A stretch of DNA of 64,000 nucleotides from Blastococcus colisei (GTDB lineage: Bacteria; Actinomycetota; Actinomycetes; Mycobacteriales; Geodermatophilaceae): assembly GCF_006717095.1 (NCBI RefSeq), contig NZ_VFQE01000001.1:3844001-3908000 (forward strand), given 5' to 3'. The notes under the pieces were generated by a model. The model worked only from the letters and a program-made list of their open reading frames with translations. It made no database searches and was not told the origin of the DNA. Shown in pieces: positions 52,324 to 63,681 of the stretch. The translations under genes and the position numbers were made by a program. Positions within the stretch are counted from its first letter, which is position 1, and each line of letters opens with the position of its first letter.

Positions 52324-53124
52324 ATGACTCACAGCATCGACGCCCCATTCCCGCCCCCCGCCACCGCGGGGTCCACATCCCCGTCGAGCACCAGCCAGTC
52401 GACCACCGGCGGCAAGGCCCAGGAGACCAAGGACGTCGCGATGGGCGAGGCCAAGAACGTCGGCCAGACCGCCGCGCAGGCCGGTGGCCAGGTCGCGTCG
52501 ACCGCGGCCGACGAGGCCAAGAACGTCGCGCAGGAGACCCAGCGCCAGGCCAAGGACCTGCTCGACCAGGGCAAGTCGCAGGTGAAGGACCAGGTCGTCT
52601 CCCAGCAGCAGAAGGCGGGACAGAGCCTGTCCGCCCTGGCGCAGGAGCTGCGCAGCCTGGCCGACGGCACCAGCGAGGGCGCCCCCGGCCCCGCCCGGGA
52701 CCTGCTCCAGCAGGCCTCGAGCTCGGTCGAGAACTTCGCCTCGATGCTGCAGAACCGCGAGCCTGCGCAGCTCCTCGACGACGTCCGCAGCTTCGCCCGT
52801 CGCAAGCCGGGCCTGTTCCTGCTGGGCGCCGCCGCGGCCGGTGTGCTCGCCGGACGGCTGACCAGCGGCGTCAAGGCCGCGCACAGCGACACCGGCCCGG
52901 CCAACGGCTTCGCCGCCCAGTCGAACTACGTCGACCCCGCGCCGACCTACTCCGACTACTCGGCGCCCACCACCAGCACCTACGCCACCACGGGTGCGGC
53001 CACCGGCGGCGCTCCGCTCCCGCCGCCGCCGTACGGCACCGTTCCCCCCGAGGGCAGCATGGTGCCCCCGGCCACCCCGGCCGGCTGGGACGACCCGGCC
53101 CGGCGTTCCGGTGGGGTGAGCTGA
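52324..53124 (+). CDS. LEA/apolipoprotein-like helical protein with a membrane helix
   Basis: A 266-residue protein. Residues 30-110 are repeats of Ala/Lys/Gln/Glu heptad- or undecad-like helices (AKNVGQTAAQAGGQVAST, AKNVAQETQRQAKDLL) as in LEA and CsbD-type stress proteins. A helix RKPGLFLLGAAAAGVLAGRL (about 160-180) may enter the membrane, and a Pro/Tyr/Ser-rich tail follows. GAGGAGG precedes the ATG. It is first of three genes; the next starts three bases later. Confidence 0.8.
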   Translation: MTHSIDAPFPPPATAGSTSPSSTSQSTTGGKAQETKDVAMGEAKNVGQTAAQAGGQVASTAADEAKNVAQETQRQAKDLLDQGKSQVKDQVVSQQQKAGQSLSALAQELRSLADGTSEGAPGPARDLLQQASSSVENFASMLQNREPAQLLDDVRSFARRKPGLFLLGAAAAGVLAGRLTSGVKAAHSDTGPANGFAAQSNYVDPAPTYSDYSAPTTSTYATTGAATGGAPLPPPPYGTVPPEGSMVPPATPAGWDDPARRSGGVS

Positions 53125-53127
53125 GGA

Positions 53128-53649
53128 ATGAGCACTCCCTACTCCGGGGCGACCCCGGCCGGGGCCCCGCAGGGCTATGCCGAACCGGGAGTCGCCGACC
53201 CGACGCCTCAGAACTACGCGGCGGACTACAGCGGCGGCATGGGCACTCCCACGACCGACTCGGGGCACCCCGACGTCCAGGGCGTGTCCGTCGGCCAGCT
53301 GATCGGTGAGGTGAGCAAGGACCTCTCGACGCTGATGCGCCAGGAGCTCGAGCTGGCCAAGGTCGAGATGAAGGCCGAGGCGAAGAAGGCGGGCACCGGT
53401 GCAGGTCTGTTCGGGGTCGCCGGCTTCGCCGGCTACATGGTGGCGCTGTTCCTCTCCCTCGCCCTGATGTGGGCGCTGGCCAGCGCCATTCCCACCGGCT
53501 GGGCCGGGCTCATCGTCGCCGTCCTCTGGGCCATCGTCGGCGCCGTCGCCGGACTGATGGGCAAGAAGAAGTTCCAGCAGGTCAACCCCAAGCCCGAGCG
53601 CACCGTGGACACCCTCCAGCAGGTTCCCGGCGCCCTGAAGCCCAACTGA
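53128..53649 (+). CDS. Phage-holin-family (DUF1469/YqjE-like) membrane protein
   Basis: A 173-residue protein. SVGQLIGEVSKDLSTLMRQELELAKVEMK is the conserved amphipathic region (about 53-82), then two membrane helices (about 90-118 and 123-145). Despite the name the family is mostly chromosomal and envelope/stress related. It sits between LEA-like and DUF3618 genes, a frequent actinobacterial trio. Confidence 0.88.
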   Translation: MSTPYSGATPAGAPQGYAEPGVADPTPQNYAADYSGGMGTPTTDSGHPDVQGVSVGQLIGEVSKDLSTLMRQELELAKVEMKAEAKKAGTGAGLFGVAGFAGYMVALFLSLALMWALASAIPTGWAGLIVAVLWAIVGAVAGLMGKKKFQQVNPKPERTVDTLQQVPGALKPN

Positions 53650-53672
53650 CCCCCCGATTCCGAGGAGTACCG

Positions 53673-54341
53673 ATGACCACCAGTGACCCGGACGTCATCC
53701 GGCGACAGATCGAGGACACCCGGCGCGAGCTCAGCTACGACGTCGACGCCCTCAACGAGAAGGTCAACCCGGCCCGCGTCGTCGACCGCCGCGTGACCGC
53801 GGCCAAGGGACGCATGAGCACCCTCAAGGAGAAGGTCATGGGTTCCGCCCAGGACACGTCGGCGACGGCGCAGCATCGGGCGTCGAACGTGGCCGGCTCC
53901 GTCCAGGGCTCCGCGTCCAGTGCTGCCGGCACCGTGCAGGATGCGGCGTCGAACGCGGTCGGCGCCGTGCAGCAGGCTCCCGACACGGTCATCCGCCAGA
54001 CCCAGGGCAACCCCCTGGCCGCGGGCCTCATCGCCTTCGGCGTCGGCTGGCTCGTCTCGAGCCTCCTGCCGGCATCGGAGAAGGAGAAGCAGCTGGCCCA
54101 GCAGGCCGAGACGGCCGTCAAGGAGCACAAGGACACGCTCCTCGAGCCGGCCAAGCAGGCCGCCCAGGAGATGGGCGAGCAGCTCAAGCCCGCCGCTCAG
54201 GAGGCCGTGGAGTCGGTGAAGGCCACCGCTCAGGACGCCGCCACCACGGTCACCGAGGAGGGCAAGTCCGCCGCCGCGGACGTGCAGGGCCAGGCCCAGC
54301 AGTCCAAGGAGACGGTGCAGAGCAAGGCACCGACCTCCTGA
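53673..54341 (+). CDS. DUF3618 protein with apolipoprotein-like helices
   Basis: A 222-residue protein. The DUF3618 head (DPDVIRRQIEDTRRELSYDVDAL) is followed by Ala/Ser/Gln repeats (SNVAGSVQGSASSAAGTVQ), a helix GNPLAAGLIAFGVGWLVSSLL and a long charged Ala/Lys/Glu helical tail. GAGGAG precedes ATG 53673. It is the last gene of the operon; terminator hairpins follow directly. Confidence 0.87.
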   Translation: MTTSDPDVIRRQIEDTRRELSYDVDALNEKVNPARVVDRRVTAAKGRMSTLKEKVMGSAQDTSATAQHRASNVAGSVQGSASSAAGTVQDAASNAVGAVQQAPDTVIRQTQGNPLAAGLIAFGVGWLVSSLLPASEKEKQLAQQAETAVKEHKDTLLEPAKQAAQEMGEQLKPAAQEAVESVKATAQDAATTVTEEGKSAAADVQGQAQQSKETVQSKAPTS

Positions 54342-54542: not shown

Positions 54543-54971
54543 GTGGACGAGACCGTGTCCGTCCTCGTCCCCCCGGCGGCTCCTGCTCCCTCTCCCGTCC
54601 GCGTGCTGGTGGCCGACGACGAGGAGGACATCCGCGCCCTGGTCTGCCTTGCGGTCACCAAGGCCGGCTGCACCGTCATCGGCTCGGTCGCCGACGGAAG
54701 CGCCGCCCTGGCCACCGCCCGCGCCGACGTCCCCGATCTGGCCGTCCTCGACGTCTCCATGCCCGGGGCCACCGGCCTCGAGGTCTGCACCGCTCTGCGG
54801 GCCGACCCGGCCACCGCGGGCATCCGCATCCTGCTCCTGTCGGCCGGCGCGTCCTTCGAGGACGTCGCCCGCGGGCTGGCTGCCGGCGCCGACGCCTACC
54901 TCGCCAAGCCCTTCGGGGTCGCCGGGCTGGTGCACCAGGTCCGCGCGCTCACCACCAGGCAGCCCGCATGA
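54543..54971 (+). CDS. Single-domain response regulator
   Basis: A 142-residue receiver-only protein. Acidic pocket VADDEED, phosphoacceptor Asp70 in LAVLDVSMPG, Ser in LLLSAG and Lys in LAKPF are all present. With no output domain it probably passes phosphate on or binds the kinase. AGGAGC precedes GTG 54543. Its TGA overlaps the ATG of the kinase gene (ATGA). Confidence 0.93.
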   Translation: MDETVSVLVPPAAPAPSPVRVLVADDEEDIRALVCLAVTKAGCTVIGSVADGSAALATARADVPDLAVLDVSMPGATGLEVCTALRADPATAGIRILLLSAGASFEDVARGLAAGADAYLAKPFGVAGLVHQVRALTTRQPA

Positions 54972-56284
54972 CGACCGTCGACCCACGGACGGCCGCGGCA
55001 CGGCCGGGACGGCTACCGCGGCCGAGGGCCGCCCGCCCGGACGTCCCGGACGCCGAGCTCGAACGGCTGCGCGAGGAGAACGCCGCCCTGCGCGCGCAGG
55101 TCCGGACCCGAGCCGACGAGCTCGACCTCGCCACCCGGATGCTCGCCGCCCGCGCTCAGACCATGACCAGCGTCATCGACGCGGTCACCGAGCAGTCGAT
55201 CATCGGCACCGACCGCGACGGCGTGATCCGCGTCTGGAACCCCGGCGCCGAGAAGATGCTGGGGCTCCCGCGTCCCGACGTCGTCCGGAAGCGCTCGATC
55301 GTCGAGTTCCACCAGCCCGAGGAGCTGGAGGCGGCGGCGGAGGGGTGCGGCTCGGCCACCGGCCTCGCCGCTCTCGTGCACGCGGCGCAGGAACACGGCA
55401 GCGACGTCCGCGACTGGACGTACGTGGCCGCCGACGGGCAGGAACGAACGGTCTCGGTCGCCGTCACGCCGCGCACCGACGACCGCGGCGTGCACGCCGG
55501 CTGGAACTTCGTGGGCACCGACATGACCGAGGCCCGTGCCACCGAGCGGATGAAGGACCAGTTCGTCAGCCTGATCAGCCACGAGCTGCGCACCCCGCTG
55601 ACCTCGATCCTCGGTTACCTGGAACTGGTCCTCGAGGACGAGGGCCAACCGCTCACCGAGGAGCAGCGCAAGTACCTGACGACCGTCGAGCGCAACGCCG
55701 ACCGTCTGCTGCGGCTCGTCGGCGACCTGCTGTTCACCGCGCAGGTGGACGCCGGTCGTTTCAGCCTCCAGCCGCAGGACGTCGACCTGGCCGGCGTCCT
55801 CCGAGCGGCGGAGGAGACCGCCCGCGTCACCGCGGACGCCGCCGGCGTCGAGGTCGTCGTCGAGATCCCGGAGGACGGCGTCGTCGTTCCCGGTGACGCC
55901 GTGCGGCTGGGCCAGGCGTGCGACAACCTCGTGTCCAACGCCGTGAAGTTCACGCCCTCCGGCGGCCGGGTGACCCTCTCGCTGCGCAGCGGCTGGGCGG
56001 CCCCCGACGGCACGGTGGGCGACGAGCCGCGGTTCGGCTCGGCCCCCGTCGCCCAGCTGGCGGTCAGCGACACCGGCATGGGCATCCCCACCGGCGAGCA
56101 GGGCAAGCTCTTCGCCCGCTTCTTCCGGTCCTCCACCGCCCAGCGCAACGCCGTCCCCGGCGTGGGGCTCGGCCTGGCCATCACCAAGGCCATCACGACG
56201 GCGCACGGCGGCACGCTGGATGTCGTGAGCGCCGAGGGCGAGGGCACGACCTTCACCCTGACGCTCCCCCGCGCCACCGCCTGA
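54968..56284 (+). CDS. PAS-domain sensor histidine kinase
   Basis: A 438-residue soluble kinase: basic head, coiled coil (about 28-65), PAS domain (about 66-185), HisKA with His205 in SLISHELRTPL, and HATPase_c with N-box DNLVSNAVKF, DTGMGI and GVGLGLAI. No membrane segment, so the signal is cytosolic. It is coupled to the response regulator gene upstream and lies before the fibre-protein genes it may control through the downstream receiver-HPt proteins. Confidence 0.94.
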   Translation: MTTVDPRTAAARPGRLPRPRAARPDVPDAELERLREENAALRAQVRTRADELDLATRMLAARAQTMTSVIDAVTEQSIIGTDRDGVIRVWNPGAEKMLGLPRPDVVRKRSIVEFHQPEELEAAAEGCGSATGLAALVHAAQEHGSDVRDWTYVAADGQERTVSVAVTPRTDDRGVHAGWNFVGTDMTEARATERMKDQFVSLISHELRTPLTSILGYLELVLEDEGQPLTEEQRKYLTTVERNADRLLRLVGDLLFTAQVDAGRFSLQPQDVDLAGVLRAAEETARVTADAAGVEVVVEIPEDGVVVPGDAVRLGQACDNLVSNAVKFTPSGGRVTLSLRSGWAAPDGTVGDEPRFGSAPVAQLAVSDTGMGIPTGEQGKLFARFFRSSTAQRNAVPGVGLGLAITKAITTAHGGTLDVVSAEGEGTTFTLTLPRATA

Positions 56285-56465
56285 TCCCCCGGCGCGGTCG
56301 CCCTCCGCCGTCCCCGCGCCCGCAGTCGACGCCCCCGGCGATTCCCGCGCTCGCACGCATGCGGGCGGTCGAGAGGGCACGCATTCCCGCTTCCTGGCGC
56401 ATTCAGGCGACGTCGCGACGGCCCGGGAAACCGGCGAAAGGGCCCGATTGCGCCTCGTTCCCCCC

Positions 56466-56487
56466 ATTCCTTGCGGATTCCTTGCGG
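56466..56487 (+). promoter_or_regulatory. 11-bp tandem direct repeat upstream of the TasA-like gene
   Basis: ATTCCTTGCGG occurs twice in tandem (56466-56476, 56477-56487), about 95 bases before ATG 56581. One helical turn per repeat is typical of OmpR/PhoB-type regulator sites; such a regulator is encoded at 59882-60589. The 296-base gap 56285-56580 holds no gene and is less GC-rich here, as expected of a promoter. Confidence 0.5.
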
Positions 56488-56580
56488 AACGCTGGCGGGT
56501 GCCCTGCGGTACGGCACCCAGAGTTCTCCTTGTCGCCGGGAACGCCGGTCGACGAACCGGACGCAGGGAGACAGACGGAC

Positions 56581-57198
56581 ATGAGCACCAAGACCATCGC
56601 CACCAGCTCCACCGCCCGCAAGGTCGTCGGCTCGCTCGGCGTCATCGGCGCCGCCGCCGCGGTCGCCGGTATGGGCACCTTCGGTACCTTCACCGACAGC
56701 ACCGCCCCGGTCACCACGACCGTCTCCTCGGGCACGGTCAACATCGACCTCGCCGCCGCCGGCGAGGCCATCCCGGCGAACGTCGCCGGCTTCGTGCCCG
56801 GCGACTCGCTCACCCGGGCGGTCAACCTGGTCAACGCCGGCACCTCGGCGCTGGAGTCGGTCATGCTGAACACGACCGTCACGAACCCGAGCATCCTGAC
56901 CACCGACACGGTCAACGGCCTGAAGCTGACCGTCAGGTCCTGCTCGGTCGCCTGGACCGAGGGTGGCACCCCGGACGCCCGGACCTACACCTGCTCGGGT
57001 ACCTCGCGTCTGCTCGGCTCCGTCCCCGTCAGCTCGGGCATGACCCTGAGCAGCCCGGCCTCGCTGGCCGTGGGCGGAACGGACCACCTCACGGTCGACA
57101 TCACGCTGCCGAGCGGCGCCGACAACACCTTCCAGGGCAAGTCCTCCGGGCTGAGCCTGGTCTTCACCGGCACCCAGCGCGCCGGCACCGCCCGCTGA
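56581..57198 (+). CDS. TasA/camelysin-like secreted fibre protein
   Basis: A 205-residue exported protein of the SipW-dependent type. The signal region (KVVGSLGVIGAAAAVAGMGTFGTF) ends before TFTDS, the usual processing context of TasA/CalY relatives, then TVSSGTVNIDLA and a beta-rich domain (FVPGDSLTRAVNLVNAGTS). Two Cys may form a disulfide. TasA makes amyloid-like matrix fibres in Bacillus; this function is inferred here. GGGAG precedes the ATG. The cognate signal peptidase gene follows after 32 bases. Confidence 0.85.
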   Translation: MSTKTIATSSTARKVVGSLGVIGAAAAVAGMGTFGTFTDSTAPVTTTVSSGTVNIDLAAAGEAIPANVAGFVPGDSLTRAVNLVNAGTSALESVMLNTTVTNPSILTTDTVNGLKLTVRSCSVAWTEGGTPDARTYTCSGTSRLLGSVPVSSGMTLSSPASLAVGGTDHLTVDITLPSGADNTFQGKSSGLSLVFTGTQRAGTAR

Positions 57199-57230
57199 TC
57201 ACGGCCTGACGACCCCACGGAGATCTCGCC

Positions 57231-57839
57231 ATGACCGCCGTCCTCCCTGTCCGTCGCCCGGGGGCAGCTGACCAGCTGCCCCCGGCCGAGGACACGCGCT
57301 CCCGCGCCGCCCGGACCCTGGGCCGCGTGGCCCCGTGGCTGGTCCGCGGAGTCATGGGCCTGGCCGTCCTGGCGTTCCTCGTCCTGGCCGTCGGACCGCA
57401 CCTGCTCGGCTACCGCACCATGACCATGCTGACCGCCAGCATGTCGCCGGAGATCGACCCGGGTGACGTCACCATCGTCACGCCGATCGCGATCTCCGAG
57501 GTCACCGAGGGCATGGTCATCACCTACCACAAGCCCATCGGCGACCGCGGCCTGGTGACCCACCGGGTCGTCTCGGTCGAGACCGGCCCGGACGGCGCGA
57601 TCCAGGTCCAGACCAAGGGCGACGCGAACAACGGCATCGACCCCTGGACCGCATCCCTCCAGGGCGACATCGCCTACGAGGTCCGCGCCGTCATCCCCGA
57701 GGTCGGCCACCTGATCCAGGCCCTGCGCGCCCCCGTGGTCACGCAGGTGCTGCTCTACGGCGCCCCGGCACTCCTGGCCGGCTGGCTCCTGCTGACCATC
57801 TGGCGCCCCACCCGTGAGGAAGAGGAGGACAAGGCATGA
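57231..57839 (+). CDS. sipW: Signal peptidase I, SipW/ER type
   Basis: A 202-residue membrane peptidase. Catalytic Ser is in LTASMSPEIDPGD. The base is His in LVTHRVVSVE rather than Lys, as in SipW and eukaryotic ER signal peptidases. Box E-like KGDANNGIDPW follows. There is an N-terminal helix and a C-terminal helix with acidic end. It probably processes the TasA-like protein and the next gene's product. ATGA overlap with the next gene. Confidence 0.93.
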   Translation: MTAVLPVRRPGAADQLPPAEDTRSRAARTLGRVAPWLVRGVMGLAVLAFLVLAVGPHLLGYRTMTMLTASMSPEIDPGDVTIVTPIAISEVTEGMVITYHKPIGDRGLVTHRVVSVETGPDGAIQVQTKGDANNGIDPWTASLQGDIAYEVRAVIPEVGHLIQALRAPVVTQVLLYGAPALLAGWLLLTIWRPTREEEEDKA

Positions 57840-58432
57840 CCGGCATCCGTCGAGTCCTGATCCTGATCGGCCTCACGCTGGCCGTCGTCGTCGGCTCCAG
57901 CATCCCGGCCTCGGCCACCTTCGCCGAGATCGTGGCGCTCCCGCAGACCTCCATCGCCACCGGCACCGTCGCGGCGCCCACCTCACTGTCCGTCGACGAC
58001 TGGTGCATCACCACCACGACCACCACCAAGCGGACGGTCTACACCGACCCGGTCACCGGGGTCCAGACCCAGACCGCCTGGAGCCAGACCTCGAGCGACG
58101 CCGCCAGCAGCACCAACGTCAACAGCGACACCAGCAGCACGACGGCGGGTCCCGGCGCGTACGAGACGACGACCACCAGGATCGTCGAGGACACCGAGCT
58201 GTACGTGTCGATGACCTGGACGGCCAGCGGTTCGCGTGGCGTCACCGGCTACGCGGTGGCCGCGCACCTGTCCAACGGGTCCGCCTACCTCATGGCCAGG
58301 ACGGCCGGCACGAGCATGAGCGGCCACGAGGACGCCGACGCTCTCTGGTACAGCCCGCGCCTGTCCGTGACGACGCTGACCAGCTACAACTGGACTGCGA
58401 CGTCGGCTCCGACCCGGGTGCTGTCGTGCTGA
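57836..58432 (+). CDS. Secreted protein of unknown function in the SipW operon
   Basis: A 198-residue exported protein. The signal peptide (VLILIGLTLAVVVGSSIPASA) is followed by TFAEIVALP, then a Thr/Ser-rich domain (CITTTTTTKRTV, SSTNVNSDTSSTTAG) and a beta-rich C-terminus ending in Cys. A fibronectin-like fold is possible. By position it could be a TapA-like anchor or minor subunit, but no sequence similarity supports that. The start overlaps sipW by four bases; the end overlaps the receiver-HPt gene by seven. Confidence 0.78.
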   Translation: MTGIRRVLILIGLTLAVVVGSSIPASATFAEIVALPQTSIATGTVAAPTSLSVDDWCITTTTTTKRTVYTDPVTGVQTQTAWSQTSSDAASSTNVNSDTSSTTAGPGAYETTTTRIVEDTELYVSMTWTASGSRGVTGYAVAAHLSNGSAYLMARTAGTSMSGHEDADALWYSPRLSVTTLTSYNWTATSAPTRVLSC

Positions 58433-59103
58433 CCGCCCTGGTCGTCGACGACGAAGCCGACGCCCGCCGCCGCGTGGCCGGCCTCCTCCGCCTCGGCGGC
58501 TGGCAGGTCCGCGAGGCCGCCGACGCCGAGAGCGCCCGCCGCGTCACCGCCGCCGACGACGTCGACCTCGTCGTCACAGATGTGTCGGTGCCCGGCGGGA
58601 CCGGCCCGGCGATGCTCCGCCGGATGCGGCACGACGGATCCCGCGCCCGCTTCCTCGTGGTCACCACGGATCCCACGGACGAGGTCCGGGCCGATGCGAT
58701 CACCGCCGGCGCGATGGCCTGCCTGGCCAAGCCGGTCGGGGCACGGATCCTCCTCGACTTCCTGCGCAGCCGGACCACGGGGCCGGCTGCGCAGGATCAC
58801 CTCGCCGAGCTCCGCGACTGGGCCGACCTCCACGACGAGGACGTCGACGCGGGGCTGATGGACCGGCTGCACGAGATGTACCTGGACGCGCTGCCCGCCC
58901 GGCTCCGCGCCATCGCCTCCGGCACCCGGTCCGGGAACGCACCGGCCGTCGTGTCGGCCGCGCACACCCTCGCCGGCACCAGCGGCCAGTTCGGTCACCC
59001 GGAGGTCGCCTCGATCTGCCAGGCCATCGCCGCCGACGCCCGCCGCGGGGTCATGGCCCACGCCCGGGTCGTCGAACTGCAGGAACTCGCACAGGTCTCC
59101 TGA
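58426..59103 (+). CDS. Receiver-HPt phosphorelay protein
   Basis: A 225-residue two-domain protein. The receiver (1-120) has DDE acid pocket, Asp52 in VVTDVSVPGG, Thr in LVVTTD and Lys102 in LAKPV. The HPt domain (about 145-220) has phosphoacceptor His180 in SAAHTLAGTSGQFG. It can carry phosphate on both Asp and His. GTG 58426 overlaps the preceding stop, linking its translation to the secreted-protein gene. The neighbouring kinase could be its donor. Confidence 0.88.
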   Translation: MLTALVVDDEADARRRVAGLLRLGGWQVREAADAESARRVTAADDVDLVVTDVSVPGGTGPAMLRRMRHDGSRARFLVVTTDPTDEVRADAITAGAMACLAKPVGARILLDFLRSRTTGPAAQDHLAELRDWADLHDEDVDAGLMDRLHEMYLDALPARLRAIASGTRSGNAPAVVSAAHTLAGTSGQFGHPEVASICQAIAADARRGVMAHARVVELQELAQVS

Positions 59104-59159
59104 CCCGCACCTCGGAACCCGCCCCCCACCCCCACTGACCAGAGACGGAGGACCGGACC

Positions 59160-59900
59160 ATGTCCCAGCCCCACGTCGACACTCACGTCGTCCGGACCGC
59201 CCTGGTCGTCGACGACTCCGCCGCCGCACGACACCGGGCCGCCACCCTGCTCCGGCTCGGCGGCTGGCAGGTCGTCGAGGCCGTCGGTACCGACGCCGCA
59301 CTACGCATGGCCGCGATCGCCGACTTCGACCTCGTGGTCACCGAGATGGCGATGCGGAACGGCCACGGCGCGACCCTGATCCGCAAGCTGCGCGAGAGCG
59401 GCAGCCGTGCCCGCTTCCTCGTGACGGCTTCCCGTCGCACCCAGCAGGTCCGGTTGCTGGCCGCCTCGGCGGGTGCGGTGGCCTGCCTGGCCAAGCCGGT
59501 GGACCCACGGCTCTTCGTGGACGTGATGCGCGGTCTGGCCCCCGTCGTCCACCAGCCCGTCGAGGCCGCCGCACCGGCGCCGGAGCCTGGTGCCGGTGCG
59601 CGGCAGCGCGCCGAGGAGATGTACGCCAGCGCGCTCCCCCACCGGCTCGCCTCGATCGCGGCCGGCGCACGGGAAGGCGACGCCGACGCCGTCGCGTACC
59701 TCGCTGACCTGCTGGCGGCGGCCAGCGACCGGATGGGCTACACCGAGGTGGCAGTGGCCGCCCACGCCGTCGCGGACGACGCCCGTCGCGGGGTCGTGCC
59801 GCAGTCGCGGCTGATGGCGCTCGTCGGCGTCTGCTCGCGCGTCGAAGGGACCCGCTGGGGCGCCGTGGGCCAGGAGGCGACTCAGGCGACGAGCCGGTAG
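59160..59900 (+). CDS. Degenerate paralogue of the receiver-HPt protein
   Basis: A 246-residue protein clearly homologous to the preceding one (TALVVDD, LLRLGGWQV, GSRARFLV, ACLAKPV, DDARRGV shared). The receiver phosphoacceptor is Glu62 (VVTEMAM) and the HPt His is Asp183 (LADLLAAASDRMGY). Acid pocket and Lys112 remain. It cannot take part in normal phosphotransfer; Glu for Asp often mimics the phosphorylated state, so it may act as a constitutive competitor or scaffold. GGAGGACC precedes the ATG. Its end overlaps the convergent OmpR gene by 19 bases. Confidence 0.87.
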   Translation: MSQPHVDTHVVRTALVVDDSAAARHRAATLLRLGGWQVVEAVGTDAALRMAAIADFDLVVTEMAMRNGHGATLIRKLRESGSRARFLVTASRRTQQVRLLAASAGAVACLAKPVDPRLFVDVMRGLAPVVHQPVEAAAPAPEPGAGARQRAEEMYASALPHRLASIAAGAREGDADAVAYLADLLAAASDRMGYTEVAVAAHAVADDARRGVVPQSRLMALVGVCSRVEGTRWGAVGQEATQATSR

Positions 59901-60589
59901 CCCACTCCGCGCACCGTACGGATCTCAGGAGAGCTGAGGCCGGCGGCGACGAGCTTGCGGCGCAGGTTGGACATGTGCGCCTCAACCAGCCGGAGGTTGC
60001 CCTCCCAGTCGGTCTGCCAGACCTCGCGCAGCAGTGTCTCGCGCTGCAGCACCCGGCCCGGCCGGGAGGCCAGGGCGGCCAGCAGGTCGAACTCGGTGCG
60101 GGTCAGGTCGACGACGGAACCGTCGACGCGGACCTCGCGGGTCTCCTCGTCCACCTCGAGCTCGGCGAGCCGGCGCACCGACTCCTCGGCCGCGGCGGCG
60201 GTCTCGACGGGGGCGGGCGCGGTCCGGGGGAAGCGCAGCATCGCCTGCACGCGGGCGACGAGCTCCCGCGGCGAGAACGGCTTGGCCATGTACCCGTCCG
60301 CACCGACGGCCAGCCCGATGAGCAGGTCGACCTCCTCGGCGCGCGCGGTGAGCATCAGGACGTAGCACTGGGTCTCGGCCCGGATCTGCCGGCACACCTC
60401 GGTGCCGTCGGCGTCCGGGAGGCCGAGGTCGAGCACGATCAGGTCGGGGGCGTCGCGCCGGACCTCCTCGAGGCACGCGGCCCCGGAAGCCGCCTCGCGG
60501 ACATCGAACCCGGCCCGGCCCAGCACCGTGGTGACGAGCTCGCGGATCTCGTCGGTGTCCTCCACGACGAGCACGGACTGTGCGGGCAC
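59882..60589 (-). CDS. OmpR/PhoB-family response regulator
   Basis: A 235-residue regulator. Receiver with VVEDTDE, Asp54 in IVLDLGLPD, Thr in LMLTAR and Lys in MAKPF; winged helix from about 135 (LTRTEFDLLAALASRPGRVLQRETLL, VEAHMSNLRRKL, IRTVRGVGYRLV). AGGAGGAG precedes GTG 60589. It has no adjacent kinase of its own. Direct repeats upstream of the TasA-like gene (56466) and near the M23 gene are possible targets. Confidence 0.94.
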   Translation of the reverse strand: MPAQSVLVVEDTDEIRELVTTVLGRAGFDVREAASGAACLEEVRRDAPDLIVLDLGLPDADGTEVCRQIRAETQCYVLMLTARAEEVDLLIGLAVGADGYMAKPFSPRELVARVQAMLRFPRTAPAPVETAAAAEESVRRLAELEVDEETREVRVDGSVVDLTRTEFDLLAALASRPGRVLQRETLLREVWQTDWEGNLRLVEAHMSNLRRKLVAAGLSSPEIRTVRGVGYRLVA

Positions 60590-60618
60590 GACCTCTCCTC
60601 CTCACCGGCGGCGGGGTG

Positions 60619-60635
60619 CGGAGGACAGCCCTCCG
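60619..60635. promoter_or_regulatory. Small inverted repeat upstream of the OmpR gene
   Basis: CGGAGG-ACAGC-CCTCCG lies 30 bases before the start. The 385-base gap 60590-60974 has no convincing gene; short frames there lack start signals and family likeness. It must hold the promoter of the regulator and the 3' end of the glycosyltransferase transcript. Confidence 0.35.
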
Positions 60636-60974
60636 TTCACCTGTCCGGGTGATCGGCAGCGGGGCGCCCCGGCTTGAGTCCAGCGTGTGGGTCCGGGCCC
60701 GGCTCCCCCCTCCGAGTGAGGGTGCCCTCGGCGTCCGCCCGGTTCCCGGCCACTGCCGACGGAGGAGCCGGCGCCTGCCCCCACAGCCGCTCGAGGCCGC
60801 CTGGGGCCGGAAGTCCTGGCGAGACGGAACTCTCGGGACGGGCCGGGCAGCGAACATGCGGGCCCCTCGACCACGCAGCCGTGTTCCCTCACCGGGCGGG
60901 GCGTCCGGCATCCCACACGGGTCGCACGCGGATCTCTCCAGGCAGTGCAGCCTGCCGGCTCGGGCAGTTCGCGC

Positions 60975-62405
60975 TCAGGTCGCCTCGACGAATCCCTTGC
61001 GCGGCATGGCGCCCCACTGGGTGCTTCCGGGCGCCAGCGCCCGCAGCCGCCACCACAGCGTGAGCGGCCGGTAGAGGAACGGCTCGGCCAGCGCGACGAG
61101 GAACAGCCGCGCCAGGTCAGCGGTGTCCCGGTATCGCCCGAAGCGGCGCTCCTGCAGGTAGACCGCGACACCGGTGGTCAGCCAGCCGGCCAGCAGGGCA
61201 CAGCCGGCCACGGCCGCCGCCACCACCAGGTCCAGGGCTCCGGTCGCGGCCGCAGCGACGAGGGTCAGGTAGCCGATCGCCTCCATCAGCGGTGCCAACA
61301 GCTCGAACGCGGTGAGGTAGGTCATCCCGAGCAGCCCGAAACCGCGGTAGCGCGGATTGCCGATGAGCCGCCAGTGGTCGCGCAGGCACGTGATCAGCCC
61401 CCTGTGCCACCGGATCCGCTGGCGGCCCAGTACCCGGAGCGTCTCCGGCACCTCGGTCCACAGCACGGCCTCGGGAACCTGCAGCACCGGACCACCGGGC
61501 ATGTCACGGCCGGCGTCCATCGCCTGCTGGACCAGCCGGATGGTGATGTCGAGGTCCTCCCCCAGGTGTCCGACCGCGAACCCTCCGACGCGGCGGAGCT
61601 CCTCGGTGCGGAACAGGCCGAACGCTCCGGAGACCAGGGTCACCGACGCGAGTGCGCCCATGCCGGCCTTGCCGACCACGAAGCTGCGGAGGTACTCCAG
61701 CAGCTGGCAGGCGGCCAGGAAGTTGCGTGGCACGCGCGGGCGCACCACCTGCCCGGCGGAGACCTCGCAGTCGTTGACCGGCAGGATCGTGCCGCCCACC
61801 GCAACGGGGTCGCCCCGGTGGTCGCGCAACGCCGCGACCGCCCTGGCCAGCGCCTGGGGCTCGACGAGCCCGTCGCCGTCGCCCACCACGATGAGCGGCG
61901 TGTCGGCCAGGCTGACACCGACGTTGATCGCGTCGGCCTTGGAGCCGCCGGCCTCCTTGTCCACGACCCGCAGCGGGATACCGCGCCTGCAGGGTTGCCA
62001 GACCGCGCGGACCGGCCGGCCGGGCAGTGCCGCGAAGGCCTCCGGCGGCAGCTGCGTGGGCAGCAGGTCGAATGCGGTGACCAGGCGCTCGAGCGTGTCG
62101 TCGGTGGAACCGTCGTTGACCACGACGACCTGCAGCGCCGGGTAGTCCAGTGCCAGCAGGGAGGTGACTGCGGGGACGATGACCGGGCCCTCGTTGTACG
62201 CGGGGACCACCACGGTGACCGGGGCGGGGTCTGCGGTGCGGCGGAGCTCGGCGAGCCGCCCGGATCGCCGGGACGGGCCGAGCCGCGCCAAAGACACCGC
62301 GGCGGACGCCGAGAGAAGGAGCATGACGGCCTGCAGTGCCACGGTGTAGCCCAGGCCCGCGACCCCGAGGACGACCAGCAGCTCCGTGCTGAGCTCAGCG
62401 AGCAT
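60975..62405 (-). CDS. Family 2 glycosyltransferase, processive membrane type
   Basis: A 476-residue membrane glycosyltransferase like PgaC/IcaA, hyaluronan synthase and related polysaccharide synthases. TM1 (about 8-38), GT2 domain with VVVPAYNEG, VNDGSTDDT, the DxD-type GDGDG, GEDLD and QRIRWHRG (R-x-R-W product motif), then three or four C-terminal helices. It should polymerise an exported sugar chain. Gly-Gly spacing is standard. Its start overlaps the HEAT-repeat gene by 11 bases. Confidence 0.92.
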   Translation of the reverse strand: MLAELSTELLVVLGVAGLGYTVALQAVMLLLSASAAVSLARLGPSRRSGRLAELRRTADPAPVTVVVPAYNEGPVIVPAVTSLLALDYPALQVVVVNDGSTDDTLERLVTAFDLLPTQLPPEAFAALPGRPVRAVWQPCRRGIPLRVVDKEAGGSKADAINVGVSLADTPLIVVGDGDGLVEPQALARAVAALRDHRGDPVAVGGTILPVNDCEVSAGQVVRPRVPRNFLAACQLLEYLRSFVVGKAGMGALASVTLVSGAFGLFRTEELRRVGGFAVGHLGEDLDITIRLVQQAMDAGRDMPGGPVLQVPEAVLWTEVPETLRVLGRQRIRWHRGLITCLRDHWRLIGNPRYRGFGLLGMTYLTAFELLAPLMEAIGYLTLVAAAATGALDLVVAAAVAGCALLAGWLTTGVAVYLQERRFGRYRDTADLARLFLVALAEPFLYRPLTLWWRLRALAPGSTQWGAMPRKGFVEAT

Positions 62406-63681
62406 CGGCGCGATCCCGCGTGACGGCGGGCTGCCGGTGATCCCGCTGCTGCGGGACCGGCACCGCGAGCAGCGCGCCCAGCCGCTCCCGGACTCCCGGG
62501 TGGGGATAACGAGCCGCGGCCTCGGTGAGCAGCGCGGTCATCTGCCCGCGCTGCACCAGGGCCGCGACGGCGGCCTCGGCCACGCCCCGGCGGGCCGGAT
62601 CGTCGGCGATCAGGTCGGTCAGCAGTCCCGTGCCGACGAAGGCCTGCTGCAGTCCGGTCGCCGCCGCGGTGGTGACGAACTGCGGGCTGCGGCCGATGAG
62701 GTCGGTGAGCACTGTCACGCCCCCGGGAACCGCCGCGACGGCTGCGGCCGCGCGCTGGCGCACCGACCACTGCGGGTCGTCGAGCAGTCCGACGAGCGCG
62801 GGCACGACCTGCGGCACGCCGATCTGCCCGAGGGCGGTTGCCGCATGGGCGCGCACCTCCTCGTCGGGGTCGCCGAGAGCCGCCAGCAGTCCGGGCACGG
62901 CGAGCGTCGTCGCCCCACGGGTCAGTCCGCGGGCGGCCTCCACGCGCACCCGGCTGTCCGGCGCCGCCAGCGCCTCCACCATCACCGGCTGGGCGATCAT
63001 CGGGTCGCCACAGGCGACGAGGACCCGCAGCATCCGGGGAGTCCGCTCGCCGGCCCCGATCTGCTCCAGGACCGCCGGCGCGGCCGCAGGTCCCAGCAGG
63101 CTCACCAGGTCGGCGAGCCGCTCTGCGGCGCGCTCCTCCTCCGTGCCCAGCATCCGCAGCAGCGCGGGGGCGGCCCGGTGCGCGTCCAGCCGGATGTAGG
63201 CGGTGGCGGCCGCCACCCGCACGTCCGCGGCATCGTCCCGCATCGCGATGTGCAGCGCCTCGACGGCCATGGGCAGGCGTAGGGCGCCGATGGTCTCGGC
63301 GGCGGCCGCACGCCGGTTCTGGTCGGGGTCCCGCAATTGCTCGAGCAGCTCGGCCTCGATGCCGACGGCCGCGGCGAGTTCCGACAGACGACCGTCAGCC
63401 TCACCGCGGACCGTGCCGGCGACCGACGTCGCCAGGTCGCGCAGCAGGTGGCGGCCGGACTTCCGCCGTGCCACGTCCTGCAGCCGGCGGCGCGCCTCGC
63501 TGTCGTCCTCGCGCCCGAGGACGACGGCCAGCAGGTCTCGGCGGACGTCGGCACGGATCGCCGTCACGCGGCGGATCCGTCGGCGACGCCCCCCGCGCAG
63601 CACCGCGACGGCCACGACGACGGCCACGACCGCGGCCGACAGAAGCGGCAGCGCGGCCAGGAATGTGGTGCGCACTGTCAC
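62395..63681 (-). CDS. HEAT-repeat membrane-anchored protein
   Basis: A 428-residue protein. One N-terminal helix (LPLLSAAVVAVVVAVAVL) and a basic patch are followed by about eight HEAT-like repeats (for example DDAADVRVAAATAYIRL, GDPDEEVRAHAATALGQIG, DDPQWSVRQRAAAAVAAV). HEAT solenoids mediate protein contact; it may regulate the overlapping glycosyltransferase. The GTG overlaps the upstream stop (GTGA), and its 3' end overlaps the glycosyltransferase start, so all three genes are translated together. Confidence 0.88.
   Translation of the reverse strand: MTVRTTFLAALPLLSAAVVAVVVAVAVLRGGRRRRIRRVTAIRADVRRDLLAVVLGREDDSEARRRLQDVARRKSGRHLLRDLATSVAGTVRGEADGRLSELAAAVGIEAELLEQLRDPDQNRRAAAAETIGALRLPMAVEALHIAMRDDAADVRVAAATAYIRLDAHRAAPALLRMLGTEEERAAERLADLVSLLGPAAAPAVLEQIGAGERTPRMLRVLVACGDPMIAQPVMVEALAAPDSRVRVEAARGLTRGATTLAVPGLLAALGDPDEEVRAHAATALGQIGVPQVVPALVGLLDDPQWSVRQRAAAAVAAVPGGVTVLTDLIGRSPQFVTTAAATGLQQAFVGTGLLTDLIADDPARRGVAEAAVAALVQRGQMTALLTEAAARYPHPGVRERLGALLAVPVPQQRDHRQPAVTRDRADAR

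Follow-up and report, generated by a model that had tools for sequence, protein, structure and literature searches.

In Bacillus subtilis, the tapA-sipW-tasA genes encode the fibre subunit TasA, whose N-terminal donor strand pairs with the next subunit (PMC9674648), TapA, an Ig-fold protein giving its N-terminus to TasA (PMC10151520), and SipW, described as a bi-functional peptidase (Terra 2012, cited in PMC4238804). Here we describe a comparable locus of Blastococcus colisei (Actinomycetota; Geodermatophilaceae), located in a stretch of 64,000 nucleotides (NCBI RefSeq assembly GCF_006717095.1, contig NZ_VFQE01000001.1, positions 3,844,001 to 3,908,000), hereafter the window, of a 5.16-Mb genome (G000). 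As in B. subtilis, a TasA-family subunit and a SipW-type peptidase are encoded together with another exported protein (P), which is Ig/FN3-like, whereas the order in the window is tasA-sipW-P and P had no TapA sequence match in the searches made (Pfam and NCBIfam; a profile search of the PDB gave FN3 domains, not TapA). These genes are accompanied by a single receiver (RR1), a histidine kinase (HK), a receiver-HPt protein (RR-HPt), and an OmpR/PhoB-type response regulator (OmpR). No paper on such an actinobacterial TasA/SipW locus was found among the matches listed in open-access text searches.

Our data supported the view that RR1, the kinase, the TasA-like protein, SipW, P, the receiver-HPt protein, and OmpR constitute one system in most of the Geodermatophilaceae searched. 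Judged from the sequences, this system is probably a dedicated matrix-fibre regulon, in which an HPt-like docking module is coupled to SipW and would probably provide feedback. The features underlying this reading were observed directly: the make-up and order of the gene set, the joint presence of kinase and OmpR, the box upstream of tasA, the variation of the HPt histidine, and the gene fusions.

The conserved gene set and its products

Strong matches, counted at each search's own E-value cut-off, were found among 112 Geodermatophilaceae genomes for OmpR (84 genomes), the kinase (81), TasA (76), the receiver-HPt protein (69), and P (63). OmpR was present in 81/81 kinase-bearing genomes and occurred alone in 3, with neither gene in 28. 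Maps of the fetched loci revealed a usual order of RR1-HK-tasA-sipW-P-RRHPt with a convergent OmpR gene, and the junctions, called in relatives with a custom gene caller, were constant: RR1 and the kinase overlapped by 4 bases in 48/53 neighbouring pairs, SipW and P by 4 bases in 44/51, and P and RRHPt in 42/42 (median, 7 bases). Tandem tasA copies flank RRHPt in some loci (e.g., L059, L062, and L097), gene order is rearranged in group g8 (L090 and L094) with the set still clustered, RR1 was not found in some HK-bearing loci (L078, L082, L087, L092, L096, and L104), and the tasA-less loci L106-L110 and L115 retain HK-RRHPt-OmpR. In L111 (G057), a decayed tasA/sipW remnant lies between the kinase and RR-HPt; it is a fibre cassette in the course of loss. 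Locus L135 (SPQJ01000016.1), titled 'UNVERIFIED_ORG: Bacillus sp. AZ43', has a Blastococcus-type module with most genes 65-93% identical to those of the window, and its Bacillus label is probably wrong.

Searching named genomes with a TasA profile yielded 79 loci, mostly from Blastococcus, Geodermatophilus, and Modestobacter, along with Klenkia, Trujillonella, Nocardioides, Kineosporia, and Pseudonocardia. The combination of sipW, HPt, OmpR, and P is found again in Nocardioides and Pseudonocardia, and to some extent in Kineosporia. In four Nocardioides loci, sipW-HPt faces a convergent OmpR gene, with tasA before and P beyond; in L256 (Nocardioides type), sipW-HPt, OmpR, and P lie together with tasA ~10 kb away; in L181, an HPt gene is situated between tasA copies; and in Pseudonocardia, sipW-P-RRHPt is convergent with an OmpR gene whose product is 65% identical to that of the window. 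At class level, the TasA profile matched 22/394 genomes at E 1e-15; L242 and the weakly scoring class loci fetched had neither an OmpR neighbour nor the box described below, and four of 20 class-level loci (L244, L246, L250, and L254), for which the caller, made for GC-rich DNA, predicted no genes, were left out of the counts. A preliminary description of the window, made from its sequence alone, had proposed that the fibre protein, SipW, the secreted partner, and the regulators belong to one system, and the conserved set, its order, and its recurrence outside the family bear this out.

The identities given there to TasA1 and SipW also hold, since TasA1 exceeded the cut-off of Peptidase_M73 (Pfam PF12389; 45.5 versus 22.5 bits) and SipW that of TIGR02228 (62.6 versus 51.85 bits), which places the latter in the S26B class. 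Against the Bacillus-specific models, TasA1 reached 27.5 bits versus the 450 of the TasA equivalog NF046066, so that by score it does not count as a TasA equivalog under NCBIfam, and SipW reached 56.6 versus the 190 of NF046067. The TasA1 profile matched TasA structures in the PDB (8aur, E 2.8e-5; 5of1, 4.9e-5), and its AlphaFold model consists mostly of strands, with a block at residues ~71-200 of high predicted local distance difference test scores (pLDDT, 88-98) and residues 1-60 below 50; in light of the B. subtilis precedent, this low-confidence N-terminus may fit donor-strand pairing with the next subunit. SipW has two membrane segments (hydrophobic residues 33-62 and 169-191) and a short C-terminal tail. 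P, previously called an unknown secreted protein, indeed matched no model of Pfam or NCBIfam at E values up to 1, but it can be described as FN3/Ig-like: it comprises a signal peptide, a TasA-like N-terminal motif, and an FN3/Ig-like domain, its profile found FN3 domains in the PDB (whole-sequence E 5e-7; best single domain i-E 8e-4), its model is strand-rich (mean pLDDT, 93.4), and C57 and C198 are invariant in 51 rows. Because TapA is itself an Ig-fold donor of an N-terminus, this fold and the TasA-like motif make P a plausible TapA analogue.

The phospho-sites of the linked regulators were conserved without exception in the relatives aligned, as observed for H205 of HK (68/68), D70 of RR1 (53/53), and the acceptor aspartate of OmpR (70/70). 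A Kyte-Doolittle scan detected no hydrophobic segment in HK, which is soluble by hydropathy. OmpR combines a receiver with a winged-helix domain, as in the OmpR/PhoB class, and is 79-98% identical to the window's protein in the family genomes bearing it and 65-75% in group g8. Of 14 genomes searched, two of them family members, 11 had their best OmpR match at a locus of tasA or sipW. In a tree of HK and OmpR, the nearest rows to the window were L053 and L047.

The tandem-repeat box upstream of tasA

Alignment of the regions upstream of tasA from 13 loci of the window's genus group revealed a box of direct repeats, CTTGCGG-n4-CTTGCGG-n4-CTGGCGG-n4-CCTGCGG, and the element CAGAGTT emerged too. 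With a rule of two 7-mers at an 11-bp period, at least 13/14 matches (a threshold of our choosing), and a position within 200 bp upstream, the box preceded 76/78 family tasA genes, among them the 13 window-clade sequences that gave the consensus, and the two misses scored 12. It is found on main, tandem-duplicate, and orphan tasA genes alike, ~108 bp from the gene (range, 79-119 bp; mostly 98-112 bp). At the same loci, it was found before none of the control genes (RR1, 0/53; HK, 0/67; OmpR, 0/69; u1, u2, and u3, three genes upstream of RR1, each 0/62) and rarely elsewhere (sipW, 1/68; P, 3/62; RRHPt, 5/78; other genes, 1/951). The five RRHPt boxes belong to the tasA-less loci L107-L110 and L115, where the box directly precedes RRHPt, and the sole other gene is a short open reading frame before RRHPt in L106. 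As RRHPt thus occupies the place of tasA behind the box, the promoter was kept as the fibre genes were lost. The set of named loci, which partly comes from the same genomes (e.g., G038 = L126) and is not independent, had the box at tasA in 76/86, at P in 5/49, and at sipW in 1/56 cases, and never before RRHPt (55), RR1 (45), OmpR (53), HK (45), or HPt (5).

When three repeats were scored against 200 mononucleotide shuffles of each region, most of the 78 tasA upstream regions exceeded all shuffles; L090, L094, L101, and L122 gave p values of 0.01-0.03, and L061 had no upstream sequence. In the host genome, the perfect repeat pair occurs twice, each time before a tasA gene. With up to one mismatch, the count was 7 sites, including one within the tasA1 box, and a reversed control gave 3+3, which puts the four remaining one-mismatch sites at noise level. 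A three-repeat pattern with up to three mismatches matched tasA1 and not tasA2, the third repeat of which is poor. This second tasA (L003:7212-7844, G000:C1) lies ~104 kb before tasA1, and the 19.9 kb fetched around it contained no match to sipW or P. Within the window, no promoter except that of tasA has the box, and none was found before GT2 or HEAT. Relatives, too, have orphan tasA copies carrying the box or a close match to it (L056, L070, and L122-L125).

Outside the main set, the rule was relaxed after inspection of the sequences concerned. The relaxed box was found at 17/32 tasA rows (16/31 distinct genes, as L256 repeats one L238 tasA), 8/13 P rows, P being separately placed, and 2/17 sipW genes, and at none of 14 OmpR, 8 HPt, and 340 other genes. 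Among the distinct tasA genes, grouped by hand, those with the box were 16/21 with a linked OmpR or its relative and 0/10 otherwise. CAGAGTT likewise recurs in Nocardioides tasA promoters; outside the main set it was present at tasA in 17/32 rows and at sipW in 4/17, and absent at P (0/13) and other genes (0/340). Given that direct repeats spaced by 11 bp are a known site type of the OmpR/PhoB regulator family (PMC3798270), we infer that OmpR reads this box.

The receiver-HPt domain and competing explanations

RR-HPt of the window has D52 and K102 in its receiver and H180 in its HPt domain (PF01627, 35.6 bits). Canonical HPt domains carry the motif HxxKG. Across 67 family rows (11 paralogue rows were excluded, ten by similarity and one L066 row by hand), the phospho-histidine was the most variable residue of the motif, being His in 24 rows and otherwise A, Y, Q, T, F, N, or others, while positions +2, +3, +4, +6, and +8 from it were invariant (67/67), as was +10 (66/66); the invariant neighbours include L, A, G, S, and Q. 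On a 61-row tree of HK and OmpR, no fewer than 7 switches between His and non-His were needed, and 19 changes of residue state. The canonical lysine position is Ala in 67/67 rows, the aspartate of the RR-HPt receiver varies across the family, and in eight rows the receiver is largely or entirely missing. Ten Nocardioides-type loci (nine genomes) have Leu in place of the histidine, with His in 0/10, and five stand-alone HPt proteins of Nocardioides scored 31.0, 28.7, 22.2, and 19.7 bits and no match (cut-off, 24.6). In two Nocardioides-type genomes (L240 and L241), sipW and HPt are joined in a single reading frame (323 and 315 residues), with HPt attached to the C-terminal tail of SipW.

The altered paralogue RR-HPt2, which in the mapped loci was confined to the genus group of the window, carries Glu in place of the receiver aspartate and Asp in place of the HPt histidine; none of ten paralogue rows has His at that position, and the L050 row is without the HPt part. 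The receiver-HPt gene of L050 (G031) seems to be divided between two reading frames, and another receiver-HPt-like protein is encoded elsewhere in three group g9 genomes (L258 of G100, G101, and G089). A search of 298 order genomes with the RR-HPt profile, in which nine candidates per genome were scored and a limited number of matches listed, was uninformative; the matches listed outside the family covered the receiver part alone, and the Pseudonocardia and Nocardioides relatives were found via TasA and OmpR. Taken from these sequences, HPt looks like a docking module and not like an enzyme of phosphotransfer, with the window's clade as a possible exception.

In the regulon that we favour, the PAS kinase would phosphorylate OmpR, which would bind the tandem 11-bp repeats and turn on the tasA-sipW-P-RRHPt operon together with the orphan tasA2. 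SipW would trim TasA and P, both of which have a similar N-terminal motif, for assembly outside the cell, where TasA would serve as the fibre subunit, with P starting or capping the fibre like TapA through donor-strand pairing. The HPt domain, co-translated with SipW or P, may dock on a receiver, most likely that of OmpR, mainly without phosphotransfer; in the fusions, it sits on the SipW tail, presumably on the cytoplasmic side. Since its gene belongs to the operon under the proposed control of OmpR, it would act as feedback and may couple regulator activity to the secretion step. We suggest only tentatively that SipW, carrying or co-translated with a pseudo-HPt of fixed docking surface and dispensable histidine, captures OmpR at the membrane, so that matrix expression would track fibre export with no phosphotransfer.

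The preliminary description spoke of a dedicated phosphorelay. The linkage of the regulators to the set stands, and a relay through HPt is doubtful, as its phospho-histidine is not conserved. A true Spo0-type chain, from HK through RR1 or the RR-HPt receiver to the HPt histidine and on to OmpR, real in the window's clade and decayed elsewhere, appears unlikely to us. All three residues present in the window's RR-HPt, His in all ten rows of its clade (WIN, L046-L049, L051-L053, L057, and L058), and the conserved sites of HK, RR1, and OmpR would suit it, and since this clade keeps both His and Asp, some phosphotransfer may remain there. Speaking against it are the repeated loss of the histidine, the uniform Ala, the Leu of the Nocardioides-type loci, the receiver-less rows, and the loci in which RR1 was not found; an obligate relay was rejected for the family because neither the HPt histidine nor the RR-HPt aspartate is conserved, though it may still hold in the window's clade. 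That unrelated genes merely share a chromosome stretch that does not rearrange is improbable: u1-u3 are as constant as the module genes (62 loci) and other neighbours are common to up to 49, but the overlaps are constant, the set survives the g8 rearrangement, its core is kept in Nocardioides, Pseudonocardia, and partly Kineosporia, and distant orphan tasA genes share the box, as the SipW-HPt fusion also argues. This constancy of neighbours nevertheless weakens our own case, since locus gene order is widely kept in the family and linkage inside it is weaker evidence.

The polysaccharide synthase that had been counted as part of the system was not supported as such, and a single matrix system in which a HEAT/GT2 polymer is co-regulated with the fibre is highly improbable. 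The pair adjoins OmpR, and G012 has GT2 (82% identical), HEAT, and a receiver ~6 kb beyond its OmpR. GT2 relatives at E 1e-60 were present in 28/112 family genomes, the window's own included, but only that of G012 exceeded 41% identity; the others (35-41%) lie at different places, and nine other GT2 regions of 12 kb had no HEAT match. HEAT/GT2 was found near the module in G000 and one other fetched locus (L096/L276). The receiver-HEAT-GT2 segment (window 60975 to ~64046) has 73-82% identity with G012, its sole sharer among the 112 genomes in the GT2 search, and with close relatives in 1/111 other family genomes and no box, it is an independent, rare unit and was rejected as a part of the system.

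Several further observations weigh against a fibre regulon. Independent occurrence in relatives, which would separate the parts, held for GT2 and not for tasA, sipW, and the kinase, though the kinase and OmpR occur without a tasA match in at least ten family genomes (G040, G041, G045-G048, G050, G051, G055, and G058, besides the incomplete G037); these regulators are thus not tied to the fibre alone and may have another job there or be relics. His is kept in the 24 family rows, including the entire window clade, and in Pseudonocardia; no kinase of the HK type adjoins the Nocardioides loci examined; and 5/21 tasA genes in the OmpR-linked group outside the family fall below the box threshold. 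For Kineosporia (G712) and N. cremeus (G713), the tasA-linked OmpR was not among the matches listed, and in G628 the best OmpR match lies ~10 kb from a tasA without the box. The sole profile alignment between P (25-45) and TasA (33-53) is weak (hhalign E 0.0085; probability, 4.7). L109 (G047), probably Geodermatophilus obscurus G-20T, keeps the box and RR-HPt with no TasA match apparent. This strain is reported to have abundant extracellular amyloid (PMC3035280), for which TasA is consequently an unlikely source; the passages on the family in PMC9686282 name Tad pili and neither amyloid nor camelysin.

Locus map and comparison with known systems

All genes of the preliminary description were found where it had put them, and the tight packing was confirmed by overlaps of 4, 4, 7, 11, and 19 bases (Table 1). 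The box, the second tasA, and an extra receiver gene are additions to it.

Table 1. Features of the TasA-SipW locus and its surroundings in window coordinates
Feature	Position	Strand	Remarks
u1-u3, three upstream genes	52324-54341		Presumably DUF883-, holin-, and DUF3618-like; place kept in 62 fetched loci
RR1, single receiver domain without output domain	54543..54971	+	Response_reg, 83.7 bits
HK, PAS-HisKA-HATPase histidine kinase	54968..56284	+	PAS, HisKA, and HATPase_c exceed cut-off; 4-base overlap with RR1
Regulatory box, four direct repeats, 11-bp period	56470..56509	+	111 bp 5' of tasA start
CAGAGTT element	56519..56525	+	Immediately 3' of box; possible core-promoter part
TasA1, TasA/camelysin-like fibre subunit	56581..57198	+	Pfam Peptidase_M73
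SipW-like S26B signal peptidase	57231..57839	+	TIGR02228
P, second exported protein, FN3/Ig-like	57836..58432	+	4-base overlap with sipW
RR-HPt, receiver and HPt	58426..59103	+	Response_reg and Hpt exceed cut-off; 7-base overlap with P
RR-HPt2, altered RR-HPt paralogue	59160..59900	+	
OmpR/PhoB-type response regulator	59882..60589	-	Response_reg and Trans_reg_C; 19-base tail-to-tail overlap with RR-HPt2
GT2	60975..62405		385 bp from OmpR
HEAT	62395..63681		11-base overlap with GT2
Additional receiver gene 5' of HEAT	63678 to about 64046		Degenerate on visual inspection; absent from preliminary description

Regulation in B. subtilis relies on SinR and Spo0A, whereas the window has a linked OmpR-type regulator and a tandem box; its operon, unlike that of B. 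subtilis, contains an internal HPt-like gene, and no linked eps genes were found. For TasA-type matrix fibres in Actinomycetota, the locus provides candidates for the regulator, its DNA site, and the gene set. The box resembles those of ArcA, PhoB, and OmpR in its direct repeats with 11-bp spacing, often present in three to five copies (PMC3798270), and differs in sequence, with two genome sites when perfect matches are counted. As with SipW of B. subtilis, a role besides cleavage is suggested here, the candidate regulatory part being a separate or fused HPt-like domain, and the gene fusion of a matrix peptidase with a signalling domain makes an influence of SipW on matrix genes directly testable. 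Plant pseudo-HPt proteins, of the AHP6 type, likewise show the HPt fold without the phospho-histidine. The HPt described here differs from them in being bacterial, linked to a secretion peptidase, and repeatedly changed at its histidine within one gene family, and it offers a natural case of an HPt that keeps its motif while losing the phospho-residue many times.

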